53,281 nt of DNA from Bacteroidales bacterium (GTDB lineage Bacteria > Bacteroidota > Bacteroidia > Bacteroidales > P3): NCBI GenBank assembly GCA_017454015.1, contig JAFTDW010000033.1, positions 1 to 53,281 of the forward strand, in the 5' to 3' direction. Below are positions 5,347 to 52,990 of the stretch, piece after piece. The notes beneath the pieces are model-generated. The model ran no database searches. It saw only the letters and a program-made list of their open reading frames with translations, and had not been told where the DNA came from. Position 1 is the first letter of the stretch. Every line of letters begins with the position of its first letter. The position numbers and the translations under genes are program-made.

Positions 5347-6039
5347 ATGTCTAACATCAGTGAGAAACTCCAGAGCGTGAAGTCCTCGCTTCCCGAGGGC
5401 GTGAAGGTGGTGGCGGTGTCCAAGCTCAAGCCAGCCTCCGACATCAAAGAGGCATACGATGCAGGGCATCGTCTCTTTGGCGAGAACTATGCCACGGAGA
5501 TGCGCGACAAGCACCAGGAGCTGCCTGCCGACATAGAGTGGCACTTCATAGGCCACCTGCAGAAGAACAAGATCAAGTACATCATACAGTACGTGAGTCT
5601 TATCCACGGTATCGACAGCCTTGAACTGTTGCAGGCTGTCAACGACCATGCAGCCCGCGCAGGCAGGGTGGTCGATGTGTTGCTACAGTTCCACATAGCC
5701 ACGGAGGCCACCAAGTTCGGCATGGACATGCAGGAGGCCTGCGAAGCCCTCGACTGGGTGGCTGCCGCCTCGCGGAGCGAGGCGGGCCTTCACGTGAGGC
5801 CCGTGGGCGTCATGGGTATGGCTACCAACACGCCCGACAGAGAGCTGGTGCGCAGCGAGTTCCGCACGCTGAAAGGCTACTTCGACACCGTCAAGGCTAC
5901 GCGTTTTGCCAACGACCCAAGCTGGAAAGAGGTGTCGATGGGCATGAGCGCCGACTACCACATAGCGGTGGAGGAGGGCTCGACAATGGTGCGGATAGGC
6001 AGCGCCATATTCGGACCGAGAGACTACAGCAAGAAATGA
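5347..6039 (+). CDS. yggS: YggS/PROSC family PLP-binding homeostasis protein
   Basis: The 230-residue protein belongs to the PLP-binding protein family that buffers pyridoxal phosphate and affects amino-acid metabolism. The single domain is a TIM barrel. AVSKLKP contains the expected PLP lysine (K26), followed by FGENYATEM, WHFIGHLQKNK, LLQFHIATEATKFG and the phosphate-binding end MGMSADYHIAVEEGSTMVRIG. The length is normal for the family. It follows the PLP enzyme gcvP, but a terminator lies between them and no separate promoter could be recognised. Confidence 0.95.
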   Translation: MSNISEKLQSVKSSLPEGVKVVAVSKLKPASDIKEAYDAGHRLFGENYATEMRDKHQELPADIEWHFIGHLQKNKIKYIIQYVSLIHGIDSLELLQAVNDHAARAGRVVDVLLQFHIATEATKFGMDMQEACEALDWVAAASRSEAGLHVRPVGVMGMATNTPDRELVRSEFRTLKGYFDTVKATRFANDPSWKEVSMGMSADYHIAVEEGSTMVRIGSAIFGPRDYSKK

Positions 6040-6054
6040 CTCCCTTGTCAAACC

Positions 6055-6129
6055 AACGTTTTCGTTAAGCAAGAGCAGTGGAAGCTTGCTTACACTGCCG
6101 CAGCCAGAAAACGACTCACGAAATGGAAC
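6055..6129 (+). repeat. Dispersed intergenic repeat, family 1, copy A
   Basis: It starts AACGTTTTCGTTAAGC and ends AGAAAACGACTCACGAAATGG, with a core containing GCAGTG...CACTGC. The same framework recurs at 14869-14954. The ends are roughly inverted (CGTTTTCG... versus ...GAAAACG). It looks like a short palindromic repeat of the REP or MITE kind. Confidence 0.75.
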
Positions 6130-6225
6130 CAATCCATCAATTTGCAAAAACCAACAACAACCAAACGCCAAGCAAGGGGATGAACCACACGGATGGCACC
6201 CTCCTTCAACCGGCATAAAGAGACT

Positions 6226-7110
6226 ATGCAGATTTTCAAGAAAAAGAGCAATATAGTGCTCTCCTATGTGCTCATCACGTTGGGCATCATAACCTACACC
6301 TTTGCGTGGGCGGCTTTCATGTTGCCCAGCAAGATAATAGGCGGCGGCGTGTCGGGTATCTCGTCGATACTCTACTTCCTGCTGCCGATACATATCCCAG
6401 TGGGTATCATGAACCTTGTCATCAACGCCCTACTGGTGCTGTTGGGCTTCAAGATGCTGGGCTCGCGGTTCGGCGTCAATACCATTTACGGCATTGTCAT
6501 GTCGTCGCTTATGTTTATCATGTGGCAGCAGGTGCTTCATGTGGAGGAGTGGTTCCATGTGGAGGAGTTTGGCAGCTTTATGTGTGCCATACTCGGCGGC
6601 GCCATCTGTGGCGCCGGCATAGGGCTCACCTTCTCTATGGGCGGCAACAGCGGCGGCACCGACATCATTGCGCTCATAGTGAGCAAGTACTACAATATCT
6701 CGCCGGGCAAGGTTATCATGTACCTCGACATAGTCATCATAGGCTGCTCTTTCTTTGTGTCGCACAAGATTGAGAACGTGGTGTTTGGCTATATAGTGAT
6801 GGTAACCATGACCTATGTGCTCGACATGGTGATAGACGGCAACAAGCAGTCGTATCAGGTTATGGTGTTTTCGCCCAAGAGCCGCGAGATAGGCGAGGCC
6901 ATAACCCGCGAGGTGGGCCGCGGCGCCACGCTCCTCGAGGGCGAAGGCTGCTACACCGGCAAAGAGCAGCAGGTGCTTATGCTTATTGTACACAAGACCG
7001 ACAAGCCGCACGTGATGCAGATAATCAACCGTATCGACAACTCGGCGTTTATCAGCGTTGCCAAGGTGCAGGGCGTTTATGGAAAGAACTTTGAAAAACT
7101 CAAACTATAG
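6226..7110 (+). CDS. YitT family membrane protein (DUF161 and DUF2179 domains)
   Basis: From the ATG at 6226 (MQIFKKKSNIV) the protein has 294 residues; an upstream ATG at 6193 would add 11 residues without a membrane character and is less likely. Five to six hydrophobic segments (for example VLSYVLITLGIITYTFAW and VPVGIMNLVINALLVLLGF-like) are followed by a cytosolic DUF2179 domain of about 80 residues with GRGATLLEGEGCYTGKEQQV. GGNSGGTDIIA in the fourth loop is a family signature. The transported substrate of YitT proteins is unknown. The rpe gene starts 2 bp after the stop, so the two are probably co-transcribed. Confidence 0.9.
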   Translation: MQIFKKKSNIVLSYVLITLGIITYTFAWAAFMLPSKIIGGGVSGISSILYFLLPIHIPVGIMNLVINALLVLLGFKMLGSRFGVNTIYGIVMSSLMFIMWQQVLHVEEWFHVEEFGSFMCAILGGAICGAGIGLTFSMGGNSGGTDIIALIVSKYYNISPGKVIMYLDIVIIGCSFFVSHKIENVVFGYIVMVTMTYVLDMVIDGNKQSYQVMVFSPKSREIGEAITREVGRGATLLEGEGCYTGKEQQVLMLIVHKTDKPHVMQIINRIDNSAFISVAKVQGVYGKNFEKLKL

Positions 7111-47807: not shown

Positions 47808-47940
47808 TGAACTGAGGTCATGAGCACCCTTAAAAATAAAAACATGGACAGCGAATAGCACCTATGAAATAAAAACACGGATAGCGAATTGCCGAAGGCT
47901 GCGAACACAAATAGAAATAAAAACAAGGACAGTGAGCAAC
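47808..47940 (+). repeat. Dispersed intergenic repeat, family 2, with internal triplication
   Basis: TGAACTGAGGTCATGAGCACC starts a copy matching 26652-26700. The segment AAATAAAAACATGGACAGCGAAT then recurs twice in degraded form (around 47868 and 47912), so three units of about 40 bp are stacked. The following part (47938-48058) has small hairpins (CCCCGCAC...GTGTGGGG and GAAATGCC...GGCATTTC). The stretch 47741-48066 (326 bp) has no gene. Confidence 0.7.
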
Positions 47941-48066
47941 CCCGCACAAGCGTAGCGCAGTGTGGGGCAACAAGATAAAAAATGACATGCGTCTCGGAGT
48001 GAAGAAATGCCAGTGGCATTTCGATAGCGTAGCGGAGAATGTGCGCTCTCAATGAAAAAATAGAAC

Positions 48067-48459
48067 CTACCATAACGTTAAAGATCCTTCATTAAGATTG
48101 ATTTTTATAGTGTTTCTCCCATCTGGGTCGATTAATTTTATTGGGTTCTACATGCAATAGGCATACGGCTAAATGTTAGGGTACTTGTAGGCCAGCGGGT
48201 CGACGCTGAGCCACATGGTCATCAGCTCGTGATCCATGTACCTTGCGCCGAAGTACCCGTAGCCGGTCTCCTCATCGCGTTCTTTCCCGGTGAAAACAAA
48301 GGGGCAATACCGCACGGTTTGAGTGCGGTTTACCCCTTCGGTTTTATGAACGTATTGGTTCAATTGTTCACTCTTTTCCGATGTGACAGGTACCAGTCCC
48401 CAGTCCCAACCGGGACAGAAATCAACCTCTCGTGAACACTTCCTTTGTTGATATTGCAT
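48067..48459 (-). pseudogene. Decayed RHS core end (third tip, toxin lost)
   Basis: Starting at 48459 the frame reads RHS core FTGKERDEETGYGYFGARYMDHELMTMWLSVDPLAYKYPNI, then meets TAG (48169-48171), then PYAYCM, a second TAG (48148-48150), then NPIKLIDPDGRN and a short tail up to a third stop (48067). The two stops fall at S and W positions of the intact copies (ISPYAYCAWNP), so the gene is inactivated. No toxin domain remains beyond the core. TAG is a normal stop in this genome (for example rpe), so recoding is not a likely explanation. Confidence 0.8.
48119..48295 (-). repeat. RHS core direct repeat, copy 1
   Basis: A stretch of about 175 bp coding for TGKERDEETGYGYF... to PDGR, very similar to the copies at 49654-49826 and 51219-51393 in the same orientation. 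Confidence 0.8.
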
Positions 48460-48462
48460 AGG

Positions 48463-49017
48463 CTACATGCTACTACTACCATAACACCATTTAAAAAAAT
48501 CGAAAGTGCTATCTTTTTCTATCCAGATATCGCCATCATACAATCCGTATCTATATGTCTGTATCACATACCTATCGTCAATATCATCGGTAATATACTT
48601 CATTTCTTTTATACGGACTTCATCTTCTGAATAAGTTTTTCGTGGGGAAAAAAGTAGGGGTCCGTTGTGAGAGTGATTGTAAACAAAAAGTTCCTTTTCA
48701 CCTACAGAAAAACACATTATAGGATGACTATTTTGCTGATAATAAGGAGTGCCCATAAAGGCATCTGCGGGAATCCTATATAGAATTACCGTCATATAAT
48801 GATTTGTGTCAATATCATACAATGTAGCGGACAAACAAGTTCTAATTGTATCAACAATATTGTCACCAATTCGAAAATAACCTGAAAAGTCGTTATTCGA
48901 GACAAACTCTACTAATTCGGCCTCAACCTTCTCGTTGATCATGCATGTTTCTTCTTTACACTGGACAAAAAGAAAGAAAACAGACAATACGGCCATAAAA
49001 AGTAATGTATGTTTCAT
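48463..49017 (-). CDS. Candidate immunity lipoprotein of the JAB-like RHS tip
   Basis: The 184-residue protein starts with a lipoprotein signal (MKHTLLFMAVLSVFFLFVQC) and has no family I can name. The body is rich in aromatic and acidic residues, with RIPADAFMGTPYYQQNSHPIMCFSVGEK and a C-terminal YGLYDGDIWIEKDSTFDFFKW. Its ATG shares one base with the stop of the RHS-JAB gene (TAATG), the arrangement expected of toxin/immunity pairs. The DNA is AT-rich like the toxin tip. Export to the envelope suggests that the partner toxin acts there. The immunity function is inference from position only. Confidence 0.65.
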   Translation of the reverse strand: MKHTLLFMAVLSVFFLFVQCKEETCMINEKVEAELVEFVSNNDFSGYFRIGDNIVDTIRTCLSATLYDIDTNHYMTVILYRIPADAFMGTPYYQQNSHPIMCFSVGEKELFVYNHSHNGPLLFSPRKTYSEDEVRIKEMKYITDDIDDRYVIQTYRYGLYDGDIWIEKDSTFDFFKWCYGSSSM

Positions 49018-49898
49018 TATTTGAAAATGTTCATTAAAGATTGATAGCCCTGATATCGCCCCTGGGATGTATAGCCACCCTTTTTATCAATTTTATAAAG
49101 ATTCTCCGATCGAGACATATATGTGTAATATGATTTATATGAAGCCGTTGGAGCCACTCTTCTATCTCCATATAATGACGACACTTCCTCATCCTTGGAC
49201 CTTGGGTTAGGATGGCAGTGAATCATCGTGGAAACACTCCAGTTATCTACATCTTCAAACACATTTATTGTTGCGAAATCAGACTTGGAGGGCGTTCGAT
49301 CATCATATTGGTATGTAATAATGCCATATTTTGAAGCGTTTCCTTTATGGAATGCGTAAATACCCCATTCTTGATCAGTGTTTTCCGAAGTGAATTTAAA
49401 AAATTTAACAACATCTTCTTTGTTCGTAGAGACAGCCGCCTGTAGTCTACCTGTCTTAATTGGTGTACCCTGAGCATCAAGTCTTTGACATTTTACCCCA
49501 TAGTCTTTTAATTGATTGAGAATATCGTCATTAGATAAATCTACAGATGCTCCAGTTCTTTTCCCTTGCTTATTAACAGCGTATATTGTTGTCTTATCTG
49601 ATTGAGCTTTCCACGTCACATTCCCTTTTCTGTCAATTTCCCAAATATCTCTTCCATCCGGATCAACCAGCTTCACAGGATTCCAAGCACAATAGGCATA
49701 CGGGCTAATGCCGGGGTACTTATCAGCCATCGGGTCGACGCTTAGCCACATGGTCATGAGCTCGTGGTCCATGTACCTTGCGCCGAAATAGCCGTAGCCG
49801 GTCTCGGTGTCTTTCTCTTTGCCCGTGGAGTTTGGACTGCTAAAATCACTGATTTTGTATGATATATCATGCCTTTTTACGTTGTAAAAGCCAAACAT
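49017..49898 (-). CDS. RHS core end with a JAB-like peptidase toxin tip
   Basis: The 293-residue frame has an RHS-associated core (TGKEKDTETGYGYFGARYMDHELMT...SPYAYCAWNPVKLVDPDGR, residues 25-83) and a new C-terminal domain (84-293). The tip includes EWGIYAFHKGNASKYGIITY and SVSTMIHCHPNPRSKD (H227 and H229, with D236 and, further on, D245), the HxH pattern of JAB/MPN metallopeptidases found in polymorphic toxins. The N-terminal 24 residues are not RHS-like, so this is a tip without the long RHS barrel that a working toxin needs. The downstream lipoprotein gene overlaps it. The start (ATG at 49898) may be only formal. Domain assignment is moderately sure. Confidence 0.75.
   Translation of the reverse strand: MFGFYNVKRHDISYKISDFSSPNSTGKEKDTETGYGYFGARYMDHELMTMWLSVDPMADKYPGISPYAYCAWNPVKLVDPDGRDIWEIDRKGNVTWKAQSDKTTIYAVNKQGKRTGASVDLSNDDILNQLKDYGVKCQRLDAQGTPIKTGRLQAAVSTNKEDVVKFFKFTSENTDQEWGIYAFHKGNASKYGIITYQYDDRTPSKSDFATINVFEDVDNWSVSTMIHCHPNPRSKDEEVSSLYGDRRVAPTASYKSYYTYMSRSENLYKIDKKGGYTSQGRYQGYQSLMNIFK
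49654..49826 (-). repeat. RHS core direct repeat, copy 2
   Basis: Second of three copies of the roughly 175-bp RHS core end. Each copy precedes unrelated DNA, so homologous recombination between copies would exchange tips. Confidence 0.8.
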
Positions 49899-50004
49899 AT
49901 GTATTCGAAATTGTCGCCATCAGTAATGTCAACTGCTGTGTTTTCTAATCTCATTTCTTATTGCAAGTTCGCAACAAATAGCGACCATCCTTCACAACAG
50001 ATAG

Positions 50005-50610
50005 CTATTTAGTAGCATCTTTGTCCACGAGACTTTTCAGGGGAATGACTTGTTTTCCAAGATAAACATCGCTACTTGACGATGGTTCCATGATTATTAA
50101 TTCAATTCTATTATTCTCTTTATATGTCCTTATTGGGCGCATTCCCCTACCCTTAATACTAAGGGTGTAATATCTATAGAGTAAACGTTCTTTTATTTTT
50201 AAATTTATGCGACCGCTAATATGTTTGTTATTTGAACAATCGTTTATGTCGATTTGCGTATTGTATAATAGTTTGCCTTTTTCAGTGTAAATTTCTATGC
50301 TTATTTTATTTGTTGATGTGTCTTTGTATTCTTTTTTGTTTAACAATTTTGGACCATCACAATTTAATGAAGGTTGTATTATAAGGGTGCTGTCTTTTAT
50401 CCACCATCCACCATTATATTGTACTGATATATTACCAATACATGAATATACGTGGAAAGAACTGTCTTTATATAATACTATCTTCTCACTACAACCTCTA
50501 CAATCTTCGATATGCCGTTCAAAAACTTTGTATATCTCAGATTGGCAATTTTGAGAAAAAACAGTAGTAGGAATAATACTAATAATTAATAGTGTCTTTA
50601 AATAATTCAT
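50005..50610 (-). CDS. Candidate exported immunity protein of the HExxH RHS tip
   Basis: The 201-residue protein has a signal peptide (MNYLKTLLIISIIPTTVFSQ) and two Cys pairs (NCQSE, DCRGC), suggesting a folded periplasmic protein. I know no family for it; it has YNGGWWIKDSTLIIQPSLNCDG and lysine-rich ends. Its ATG overlaps the stop of the RHS tip gene by four bases (ATGA). The composition is strongly AT-rich compared with the core genome. The immunity role is inferred from its position behind a toxin tip. The spacer to the next tip (49899-50004) holds nothing that I can identify. Confidence 0.65.
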   Translation of the reverse strand: MNYLKTLLIISIIPTTVFSQNCQSEIYKVFERHIEDCRGCSEKIVLYKDSSFHVYSCIGNISVQYNGGWWIKDSTLIIQPSLNCDGPKLLNKKEYKDTSTNKISIEIYTEKGKLLYNTQIDINDCSNNKHISGRINLKIKERLLYRYYTLSIKGRGMRPIRTYKENNRIELIIMEPSSSSDVYLGKQVIPLKSLVDKDATK

Positions 50611-51461
50611 GGCATTATGTAGTAATCATTAGATAAGTCTATCTGTAATTCGGAAGCATTATAAATTGATCTATAATTGGTTCTTTGTCCAACAATACTA
50701 TGGCTATTAGGTCGCTTGTCTAAGAAAGGGTAGTATGTATCAATCTTGGGATTGCCTGCAACCGTAGTTTTGAAATGGTAACTATAATCAACGTTTTTCA
50801 AGGTCTCTAGTTGCTGAATATCATAGGCTCCACCTCTGCGCAATGCAGCTTGTTCGTCGGTTATGTCATATAATTCGCCAAAACAATCACCATTTTTACT
50901 GAAAGACAATTCTCCGTTTTGAAATTGATATGCATGTTTTAATTCATGAGCCAAACTCCCTATCATTCCATCATATTCTACCTCGACACTATTGTCCCCT
51001 GCATTGTATAGTATTCCCCCATTTTCTCTACTATACGACAATCCAATATCTCTTATATGATACATCTGTTTAGATTCCTCCAACTCTGCTATTTCACTAA
51101 GGGCAGCTAAAAGCTCCTTTCTTTTTTCAGTAGTACAGTCCATGGATTTTAATAGTTCTTCCGTGGTCTTCTTAAAGACATTTATGATTTCCTGAGAAGC
51201 CGGATCGAATTCTCTACCATCAGGGTCAACCAGTTTGATCGGATTCCAGGCGCAGTAGGCGTAGGGGCTTATTGAGGGGTATTTGTCGGCCATTGGGTCG
51301 ACGGAGAGCCACATTGTCATTAGCTCGTGGTCCATGTAGCGGGCGCCGAAATAGCCGTAGCCGGTCTCGGTGTCTTTCTCTTTGCCCGTGAAAACTAATG
51401 GGAAAAACCACACATTGGGGGCATGGTTTAGTCCTTTTGTTTTATGTACTGGATGGTTCAA
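50607..51461 (-). CDS. RHS core end with an HExxH metallopeptidase toxin tip
   Basis: The 284-residue frame has the RHS core (VFTGKEKDTETGYGYFGARYMD...SPYAYCAWNPIKLVDPDGR, residues 24-83) followed by a 200-residue tip. The tip contains SLAHELKHAYQF (H172, E173, H176) and, about 27 residues on, DEQAALRRGG (E203), the pattern of zinc metallopeptidase toxins. The frame opens with TTG directly after an in-frame stop, so it has no true start of its own: this is a 5'-truncated RHS gene. The truncation point is about 40 bp from an inverted-repeat sequence (51502-51521), consistent with loss by a mobile element. An exported protein gene overlaps its end. Confidence 0.78.
   Translation of the reverse strand: MNHPVHKTKGLNHAPNVWFFPLVFTGKEKDTETGYGYFGARYMDHELMTMWLSVDPMADKYPSISPYAYCAWNPIKLVDPDGREFDPASQEIINVFKKTTEELLKSMDCTTEKRKELLAALSEIAELEESKQMYHIRDIGLSYSRENGGILYNAGDNSVEVEYDGMIGSLAHELKHAYQFQNGELSFSKNGDCFGELYDITDEQAALRRGGAYDIQQLETLKNVDYSYHFKTTVAGNPKIDTYYPFLDKRPNSHSIVGQRTNYRSIYNASELQIDLSNDYYIMP
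51219..51393 (-). repeat. RHS core direct repeat, copy 3
   Basis: Third copy of the roughly 175-bp RHS core end, with the best preserved upstream part (KTKGLNHAPNVWFFPLVFTG), which is also present in copy 1. Confidence 0.8.
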
Positions 51462-51501
51462 TTAGATGTCGCTTCTATTTGTTATTCCACAGCAAGAAAG
51501 G

Positions 51502-51521: not shown

Positions 51522-51556
51522 ATGTTGTTTCTGATTGCAAAGTTATTCGGAGTGCA

Positions 51557-52990
51557 TCACTTGACATAGTATCCCCCTGTGCGCTTACTCCCATGGCGTT
51601 CTATCAGACCGAATTGAAGCAATGTATTGATGTGTTTGTCAATGGTTCTAAATGGTTTGCCTAAACCTTTGGCGATTGCTGTTGTGTTGCATCCTTCATT
51701 TACACGTATGTATTCAAGAGTCTCCCGTTGGCTTTCATTTAATTGACCATTTAATTGACCATTTAATTGACCATTTAATTGACCATTTAATATGCCTCTG
51801 CTCTCTATCGGCTGTCCGTTGAGCATTTTGTCAAATCGGAAAACCACAATGACATTACCATTTTGGGAGGTAATTTCCGGTTCGGGCAACCCGGCTTCAA
51901 GGCATTTGCTTTTCATAAGGCCCAGACCGCGACCCCAATTCTCAAATGTGCCACGATAGAAGAACGAACGCGCAATAATGGGGTTGTTAGGTTTGGAAAT
52001 CATTGGCGGGTTTTGGCTTGAATAATCCACCCCTTGGGGGATTTGCCCAAAATTGACAATCTCTATTCGGTCGTTGAATATGGCTATCCCGATAGAGCCT
52101 CCAGGAGTATTGTATTCTCGGTGGATGAGCGCATTAATCACGCACTCCCTCAGTGCATCGCGCGGCACGGTCAGTCGCTCTTCCCTGTATAGACCTTTCA
52201 CTTCGCCCGACAGATTGAGATGGCGGAAGAAGAAAGCCATTGCCTCTTCAAGCATAAGGAACACGTTGCCACACACCTGCTTGTTGTCAAGGAACACGCG
52301 GTTGTCCGTGCCTTGGAATCGGGCAAGGCGCAACAACAGCTGTGGGTATTCCATCGTCTCGTGTTTCAGATACAACACGGCTGCAGCATTTGTCAACCGT
52401 CCATCCTTCATCAATTCCAGATTGGTCAGCACGGTAGGGATGTCCGATCTGTAGGCAGCCTCCGGCAATCTGCCCATCTCCACACCGATGCGGACAGTGC
52501 GCTTGATTTCCTCTTCGTCGAGATCCGACAATGTGAGTTCCTGATTTGTTCTCCGTTCCCATTGAATGACAGCGCGGTTGCTTCGGTCGAGCAAATCGTG
52601 ATACCTCGCCTGTGGCATTGTGGCGGTGGTGCTCTCCACCCTCATATATGGCCGACCTTTGTACACAAACGGTTTGTCGTCGGTACTTGTAGTGGTGATT
52701 ACTATAAGTTGCTTATCTGTATTGGGGATGCCAACATACTCTATGTTGAGCAACGGGAACGGCTCAAACTCGCGGATGCAGGAAGCAATTTCACGCTTGG
52801 TACTGTCGCCGACTTCTTGTCCCACGACATTGCCATCGTCGGTCACACCGAACACCACGCTGCCGCCCTCACTGTTAAGCATTCCGCACAGGCTTTCCAT
52901 TCCGCGCTCCAATTGGCCGGTACTCTTCTTGAGTTCCAGCGTTTCTGATTCTCCTTGTTTGACTTTGTCTAATAATTCGTTCAGTTCCAT
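51557..52990 (-). CDS. AlbA_2-domain, HATPase-like transcriptional regulator
   Basis: The 477-residue protein has an N-terminal AlbA_2 (Schlafen-type) domain (ESETLELKKSTGQL, LCGMLNSEGGSVVFGVTDDGNVVG), a central region, a HATPase_c_4-like part (RECVINALIHREYNTPGGSIGIAIFNDRIEIVNFGQIP; NWGRGLGLM) and a C-terminal winged helix (TTAIAKGLGKPFRTIDKHINTLLQFGLIERHG). It resembles the RecG-like/DUF4325-type putative regulators common in Bacteroidetes. A linker of repeated LNGQ units joins the ATPase part to the winged helix. A perfect palindrome lies 18 bp upstream. It is flanked by inverted repeats and next to a transposase, suggesting a mobile cargo gene. Confidence 0.85.
   Translation of the reverse strand: MELNELLDKVKQGESETLELKKSTGQLERGMESLCGMLNSEGGSVVFGVTDDGNVVGQEVGDSTKREIASCIREFEPFPLLNIEYVGIPNTDKQLIVITTTSTDDKPFVYKGRPYMRVESTTATMPQARYHDLLDRSNRAVIQWERRTNQELTLSDLDEEEIKRTVRIGVEMGRLPEAAYRSDIPTVLTNLELMKDGRLTNAAAVLYLKHETMEYPQLLLRLARFQGTDNRVFLDNKQVCGNVFLMLEEAMAFFFRHLNLSGEVKGLYREERLTVPRDALRECVINALIHREYNTPGGSIGIAIFNDRIEIVNFGQIPQGVDYSSQNPPMISKPNNPIIARSFFYRGTFENWGRGLGLMKSKCLEAGLPEPEITSQNGNVIVVFRFDKMLNGQPIESRGILNGQLNGQLNGQLNGQLNESQRETLEYIRVNEGCNTTAIAKGLGKPFRTIDKHINTLLQFGLIERHGSKRTGGYYVK
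51736..51790 (-). repeat. Four exact 12-bp tandem repeats in the AlbA_2 gene
   Basis: CATTTAATTGAC occurs four times without change, plus 7 more bases. On the coding strand it encodes repeated LNGQ. Because the unit is a multiple of three, slippage would only lengthen or shorten the linker. Confidence 0.95.

Follow-up and report, generated by a model that had tools for sequence, protein, structure and literature searches.

Rhs core ends in the window

The window analyzed here is a 53,281-nucleotide stretch of DNA from an uncultured gut Bacteroidales bacterium (assembly GCA_017454015.1, contig JAFTDW010000033.1). On its minus strand, the end of an Rhs polymorphic-toxin core is present three times between positions 48067 and 51461. 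The copies lie head to tail, as stated in the preliminary description of this DNA, and a three-copy direct repeat and a protein search agree on this layout. The protein search places the core matches at 48112-48294, 49644-49826, and 51210-51392, with E values of 3e-34 to 8e-42. All three copies match TIGR03696 above its cut-off. Copy 1, the first in reading direction, shows 66-93% DNA identity to the other two across 60-nucleotide bins of the core. Because the three cores have diverged and lie on one contig, assembly collapse is no explanation for the copies.

Copies 1 and 2 continue in frame into two unrelated tips of about 200 and 208 codons, respectively, each directly followed by a partner gene with an export-like N-terminus. 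The partner gene of cassette 2 overlaps the cassette open reading frame (ORF) by 1 nucleotide. Copy 3 has no partner gene and is decayed, with two in-frame TAG codons inside the core and a tip stub that closes with a third TAG at 48067. No copy contains a barrel. The open frame extends only 23 codons ahead of the core in copy 1 and 30 codons in copy 2, and no secretion N-terminus was found when these short N-terminal parts were read by eye. The layout given in the preliminary description is thereby confirmed. The features are listed in Table 1.

Table 1. Positions of the Rhs cassettes, their leaders, and the upstream gene in the window.
Feature	Position	Strand	Remarks
Flanking gene	51557..52990	-	Schlafen/AlbA_2 and HATPase_c_4 domains above cut-offs, weak winged-helix match
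-7-type box TAACTTTG	51538..51545	-	matches TANNTTTG; 153 nucleotides ahead of first core
Family A leader, up to core	51393..51478	-	conserved stretch and imperfect hairpin
Orphan cassette 1	50607..51461	-	core end 51392-51210; HExxH...E zinc-peptidase-like tip
Putative immunity gene 1	50005..50610	-	signal-peptide-like N-terminus; 4-nucleotide overlap with cassette 1
Cluster W9 leader	49830..49895	-	about 60-70 nucleotides, extent approximate
Orphan cassette 2	49017..49898	-	core end 49829-49644; Tox-JAB-1-like tip
Putative immunity gene 2	48463..49017	-	lipoprotein-like N-terminus, lipobox FVQC
Family A leader, ahead of third core	48295..48380	-	
Decayed cassette 3	48067..48294	-	core end 48294-48112; tip stub

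The G+C content (GC) is 0.52-0.55 in the window cores, 0.37-0.38 in the tips, 0.30-0.35 in the partner genes, and 0.55 in the whole window. The AT-rich tips had been taken as a sign of transfer. The same contrast exists throughout the genus, with means of 0.52 for the core, 0.37 for the tip, and 0.35 for the partner (cassettes with a short or cut tip are excluded here and from the partner counts below). Since AT-rich tips are general in the genus, the contrast itself does not point to transfer.

The tips and their partner genes

Tip 1 contains an HExxH motif and a downstream E. Positions E88, H91, A92, Q94, and E118 are invariant among eight chosen tips, two of which have E in place of the first H of the motif. 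The alignment of tip 1 relatives is based on seven of nine loci tried out of 33; one of the two excluded loci has a JAB tip and the other lacks an open frame. Against the Peptidase M91 and DUF6782 profiles, tip 1 scores 15.2 and 16.2 bits, under the cut-offs of 25 and 27. In two other species, partial barrels terminate in relatives of tip 1 that are 38-42% identical to it.

Tip 2 matches Tox-JAB-1 (PF15659) with an E value of 0.00066 and 20.6 bits, just under the cut-off of 21. It contains the motifs NTDQE (NxxxE) and HCHP (HxHP), and similar patterns exist in most of the 19 aligned tips (18 relatives). The alignment shows G-D after HxHP and an S at no fixed place. The strict JAMM pattern S-x-x-D was rejected as a description of this tip; it matched one of 18 JAB-cluster tips and is absent from the window tip. 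Compared with a related orphan tip (G028), tip 2 has a ratio of non-synonymous to synonymous substitution rates (dN/dS) of 0.13 at a dS of 1.6. Both tips had been called peptidase-like. The HExxH motif bears this out for tip 1, and for tip 2 the term stays open because toxin JAB domains might act as nucleases, as suggested by Zhang 2012 (PMC3482391).

No match to Imm65 was found for the partner of tip 2 (E value 1) or for the partners of 10 relatives (E value 0.01), with the presence of the Imm65 model in the Pfam copy not checked. An export-like start is present in 142 of 155 partner ORFs of the genus, as called by a hydrophobicity rule rather than a trained predictor, and 55 of these are lipobox-like, a class called with a lower limit. 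For comparison, such a start is present in 6 of 168 internal tip windows and, with the rule slightly altered, in 34 of 96 other ORFs. The partner genes probably protect the cell.

Rhs cores in the host genome and the genus

The window corresponds to contig C14 of a metagenome-assembled genome (MAG) of 2.3 Mb that is 94% complete and in 63 contigs. Eight cores are present in this genome: three in the window, three head to tail on contig C46, one at the start of contig C57, and one on contig C13. The C13 core keeps a truncated barrel end that contains a stop. A full-length rhs gene was not found in this genome, where no RHS_repeat match exceeds the Pfam cut-off (five weak matches are present) and a mid-barrel query has no match. 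None was therefore found to read into the window tips, and nothing in the assembly is able to exchange with the store of tips that the preliminary description had seen in the array, which weakens that part of its reading.

The Rhs core is present in 83 of 119 genomes of the uncultured Bacteroidales genus, and the mid-barrel of the 3000-residue class is present in 21 of 119. At least 10 further genomes contain open frames of 1378-2083 amino acids ending in the core. Named records in the search for related cassettes are mostly uncultured Bacteroidales from ruminants or horse. We know of no cultured member of the group.

A set of 75 regions with 197 cores was read closely, comprising 71 regions from relatives (the better-matching ones) together with the window and three more regions from its genome. 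The upstream side was scored for 194 cores, three being dropped for a late match start. Seven of the scored cores close genes that encode 2555-2802 residues ahead of the core (three of these genes are cut at a contig end), 27 follow a truncated barrel of 31-693 residues, and 160 follow other upstream sequence. The seven full-length genes end in the same core as the window copies, which is what the preliminary description had proposed to look for in related genomes. All seven have another core within 3.3 kb behind them on the same strand; this further core has no barrel in four cases and a truncated one in the other three. The window array is not downstream of a full-length rhs gene, none having been found in its genome; that position is treated here as a usual trait of orphan modules and not as a defining one.

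Tips of at least 60 amino acids follow 168 of the 194 scored cores and form 68 single-linkage clusters, 33 of them singletons. The other 26 cores lack such a tip, and at least 18 of these are not cut by a contig end. For six of the seven full-length genes in the set, the tip family is shared with an orphan.

In some cores (L068, L074, L084, L085, L087, and L099, for example at about positions 100-170 of L099), FTG is followed by an insert that keeps the frame, about NAPRKGNRAPLNQINCSE with the palindrome CCCCGTAAGGGG. Other cores contain a second in-frame insert, about EKEGSRGPFASERGDEPRSGIPN. Both inserts resemble repeat elements that the coding sequence tolerates. Cores of this Bacteroidales type are also encoded on contigs filed under a Ruminococcaceae and an archaeal MAG (L148 and L150), which are probably misbinned.

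Breakpoints between species

Near-identical cassettes exist in different species, where the upstream contexts differ and in one case include a full-length rhs gene. Eleven interspecies pairs were compared in 60-nucleotide bins. Nine have a tip identity of at least 90% (22 pairs are listed at 70% or more), and two were picked by eye for shared leaders. The first 60 nucleotides of the core are 60-85% identical in the nine pairs. In five pairs, identity of at least 95% begins within the core; in three it begins at the core end and in one only at position +420. The tip and partner are then mostly 95-100% identical, with 75-98% in the pair L056/L084. The left-hand contexts are unlike each other (leader family B against A, family F against a barrel, full length against orphan). 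In the pair between the full-length gene of G002 and the orphan of G066, nucleotides 7-1645 are 95.7% identical.

A second core lies within 1.6 kb in both copies of four pairs, and in all four the identity drops to 76-83% at that core. For example, L070_5408 and L090_2056 are 78% identical over positions 0-60, 95-100% over 60-1320, and 70-80% thereafter, and the next FTGK is at +1299.

In the two pairs picked by eye, 300 nucleotides of leader are 98-100% identical and the tips then differ. Between the head of the window array and the C57 cassette of the same genome, about 300 upstream nucleotides are 85-98% identical, the last 60 nucleotides are 75% identical, and the core is followed by unrelated tips.

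This breakpoint pattern fits homologous recombination between direct repeats of the core, which we infer to be its cause. As core copies bracket the cassettes, such recombination could move the tip, partner, and leader as a unit.

An array of orphan cassettes

The region is best read as an array of orphan Rhs C-terminal tip/immunity cassettes that can move through core-to-core exchange and now most likely form a bank, a reading to which we give a probability of about 0.85. The sharing of tips between orphans and full-length genes across the genus and the core breakpoints between species bear out the assignment to orphan tip/immunity cassettes made in the preliminary description. Each cassette consists of a core-end copy of about 180 bp, a variable toxin tip that continues its reading frame, and a partner gene that overlaps the tip and whose product looks exported. 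Homologous recombination between cores would carry cassettes from one array or species to another and to or from full-length rhs genes. Expression of partner proteins from the array head would defend the cell against relatives armed with these tips, while the tips themselves would remain available for loading onto a carrier. The array is considered most likely a bank at present because no full-length carrier was found in the genome. Toxicity, neutralization, expression, delivery, and the benefit of an immunity bank are what we infer from these arrangements.

Most tip pairs show purifying selection. Pooled over 15 tip pairs, the ratio of non-synonymous to synonymous differences (pN/pS) is 0.36; over 14 partner pairs it is 0.42.

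Several observations weigh against this interpretation. Neither window tip was found joined to a full-length rhs gene in 120 genus genomes. Structure models of the two tips are poor, with predicted local distance difference test (pLDDT) values of 54 and 38, and a fold search gave no significant match. In the other five of the nine interspecies pairs, the right-hand end of the identical stretch is not at a core; it falls behind the partner gene but ahead of the next core, or a nearby core is not recorded. Single tip pairs reach dN/dS values of 0.80 and 0.88, one tip pair has six non-synonymous changes but no synonymous ones, and the dN/dS of one partner pair is 1.36. The selection on tips could also stem from time spent on carriers. 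Finally, a full-length rhs gene could be missing from the assembly, given a 94% complete MAG in 63 contigs and related MAG contigs that end in or beside cores.

Promoter boxes at array heads

The sequence TANNTTTG, which we take to be the Bacteroides -7 box, was counted ahead of 143 cassettes without a barrel fusion and with at least 250 upstream nucleotides; barrel-fused cassettes and those with a shorter upstream side were excluded. An array head is defined here as the first core on its strand in a region, or a core more than 3 kb behind the last one. The box is present ahead of 27 of 50 heads (7.8 expected from dinucleotide shuffles), some of which may be false heads created by region ends, and ahead of 12 of 93 internal cassettes (12.0 expected). 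The Fisher p-value of 3e-7 is an overstatement since the heads share leader families and are not independent. Counted by leader cluster, the box is found with 15 of 23 clusters from heads and with 10 of 31 from internal cassettes. The two-box form is present at 8 of 50 heads (0.4 expected) and 0 of 93 internal cassettes (0.5 expected). In the window, no -33 TTTG was found at the proper spacing from the head box. The position of the box is the same in the C57 copy of this genome.

The boxes bear on whether head cassettes are stand-alone mini-toxins. Under that explanation, a promoter of its own would drive each head cassette, and its short product of core and tip would work with no barrel, either through another export route or inside the cell. 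The enrichment of both box forms at heads and not at internal cassettes agrees with it, as does the purifying selection on most tips. In addition, an ATG lies shortly behind the box in several family B heads, along with a partly conserved sequence in the reading frame of the core. On the other hand, the head counts are non-independent, no export signal was seen by eye in the head N-termini examined, and the promoter may serve the partner genes. As the partners look exported, a toxin that is not exported would not meet them. Stand-alone mini-toxins are considered unlikely, although they are the best of the alternatives to a bank.

Toxin switching without a full-length Rhs protein is a somewhat weaker candidate. 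A promoter-bearing head would express one cassette, the promoterless cassettes behind fixed leaders would wait, and core recombination would swap the head.

The preliminary description also spoke of cassettes left behind, which suggests silence. Silence is harder to maintain given the purifying selection on most tips and the boxes at many heads.

Possible decay of the array

The array could also be debris, that is, remnants of an ancestral rhs locus heading for loss with no present role. The stops in window copy 3 and in the truncated barrel of C13 are of the kind expected from debris, and so are the few pairs with dN/dS near 1 and the failure to find a full-length rhs gene in the genome. Against this, two of the three window cassettes are open, and the 168 of 194 genus cores noted above run at least 60 amino acids into a tip. 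The pooled tip pN/pS of 0.36 and the presence of 96-100% identical tips in different species also argue against general decay. Debris is judged improbable.

The FTGK border and the leaders

Most barrel-less orphan cores start at the same FTGK codon, behind unrelated leaders. Among 40 representatives of leader clusters not linked by blastn, the information content is 0.05-0.40 bits per base in the 60 nucleotides before the core and 1.5-1.7 bits in the first 12 nucleotides of the core. Barrel-like residues are present in the 40 codons upstream of FTGK in five of 146 scorable orphans outside the barrel cluster and absent from 141. The border is common and not universal, since 27 cores keep truncated barrels. 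In other genera, the orphans have variable barrel lengths (20 regions in 12 genomes). We prefer a single founder junction with diverged leaders over a special mechanism as the explanation of the border.

Family A is the commonest leader, with 46 copies, and contains an imperfect hairpin. Across 30 distinct sequences, 74% of the pair cells are standard, and 14 of 22 pairs have changes on both sides, compared with 9.5 in shuffles (4 of 500 shuffles reach the observed value), in an alignment that left out 13 of the 46 leaders (12 diverged or frame-broken and one short), an omission that favors the hairpin. RNAalifold alone retains three pairs. The last 60 nucleotides of the W9 leader of cassette 2 are 73-80% identical to those of two cassettes on contig C46.

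A site-specific cassette system, in which the leader hairpin would be a recombination site like an integron attC and a recombinase would insert cassettes at FTGK, could account for the sharp information step, the 141 orphans without barrel residues, and the changes on both sides of the hairpin, but is very unlikely in view of the 27 of 194 cores with truncated barrels, the three pairs retained by RNAalifold, the variable orphans of other genera, and the left breakpoints inside the core in five of nine pairs, as breakpoints at or inside the core speak against an integron-type cassette boundary.

Other roles of the leader were considered and rejected. A genome-wide terminator or repetitive extragenic palindromic (REP) element is not borne out for leader A; a scan with strict filters, in which 105 candidates were scored per genome, gave 50 matches in 14 of 41 genomes, and all 14 have Rhs cores. 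Of 12 leader A sites outside the first regions, nine lie beside cassettes, partner-like genes, or core remnants, and none of these was seen at L115, L119, and L123. As N-terminal coding sequence, the leader is in frame yet variable, and some junctions interrupt the frame. A role as the start of a full-length gene is not borne out either, since the leader has no match at the four available gene starts (L045, L046, L051, and L075). Leader A copies without a core could be taken for array ends, but several precede truncated cores or cores with an in-frame insert. At two loci (L070, 8070-8180; L088, 1433-1546), leader A exists as overlapping head-to-head copies that form a long palindrome with no core directly behind.

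Neighboring sequences

The 3' end of the Schlafen/AlbA_2-type gene upstream of the array recurs, together with the leader, ahead of the C57 cassette (L011, 1-475). Downstream of decayed cassette 3 is a short element at 47960-48073 with the translation SIFSLRAHILRYAIEMPLAFLH. This element recurs on contig C13 (L010, minus-strand ORF 5460-6449). Three imperfect 33-nucleotide direct repeats (AAATAAAAACA...) are present at 47822-47935, between a channel gene and the decayed cassette.

Relation to known systems

Orphan rhs-CT/rhsI and cdiA-CT/cdiI modules are known (Jackson 2009, PMC2935791; Poole 2011, PMC3150448; Koskiniemi 2014, PMC3967940). In these modules, a core or VENN fragment, an unrelated tip, and an immunity gene are arranged in tandem, and the same tip can be an orphan in one strain and part of the main gene in another, as in the present genus. 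The homology of contact-dependent inhibition (CDI) loci runs from one VENN sequence to the next (PMC3150448), which resembles the core-to-core pattern found here. The present arrays differ from these modules in that a search of the window's genome gave no full-length carrier, in the promoter box at many heads, and in the mostly export-like partners. The barrel-less fragments described here mostly begin at one codon, whereas Jackson 2009 (PMC2935791) reports variable length and Poole 2011 (PMC3150448) varying amounts.

Rows of truncated rhs and immunity genes that recombine between cores are also present in Snodgrassella alvi, where many are transcribed (Steele 2017, PMC5727410). According to the same source, those rows follow a complete rhs gene, none of which was found for the window array, and the Rhs toxins are associated with a type VI secretion system (T6SS). 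Of three full-length genes inspected in the present genus, one is cut and the other two have a lipoprotein-like signal at their start.

The window's cassette 2 resembles Tox-JAB-1/Imm65, as described in Zhang 2012 (PMC3482391), in the Bacteroidetes host, the Rhs context, the NxxxE and HxH motifs, and the lipoprotein-like partner. It differs in the sub-threshold score of the tip and in a partner without an Imm65 match. In gut Bacteroidales, orphan immunity genes without a matching effector are reported to be protective (PMC12247911, PMC10470768). They counter T6SS effectors, whereas here each partner has a tip beside it.

No earlier description of Bacteroidales Rhs arrays of this kind was found among the papers listed, judged by titles and the beginnings of abstracts and with most subscription journals outside the search. 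The kind of array is already known. What looks unusual is the frequent start at FTGK, the boxes ahead of array heads, and the export of partners, variant features for which this search found no description.

In the collection of Zhang 2012 (PMC3482391), Imm65 is given as the only lipoprotein-like immunity protein, and in contrast export-like starts are the rule for the partners here. The unit of tip exchange has been mapped at the nucleotide level and across species. Orphan arrays may be headed by a promoter and form a bank of exported immunity proteins, also in genomes where a search gives no delivery gene, a proposal that is open to testing.

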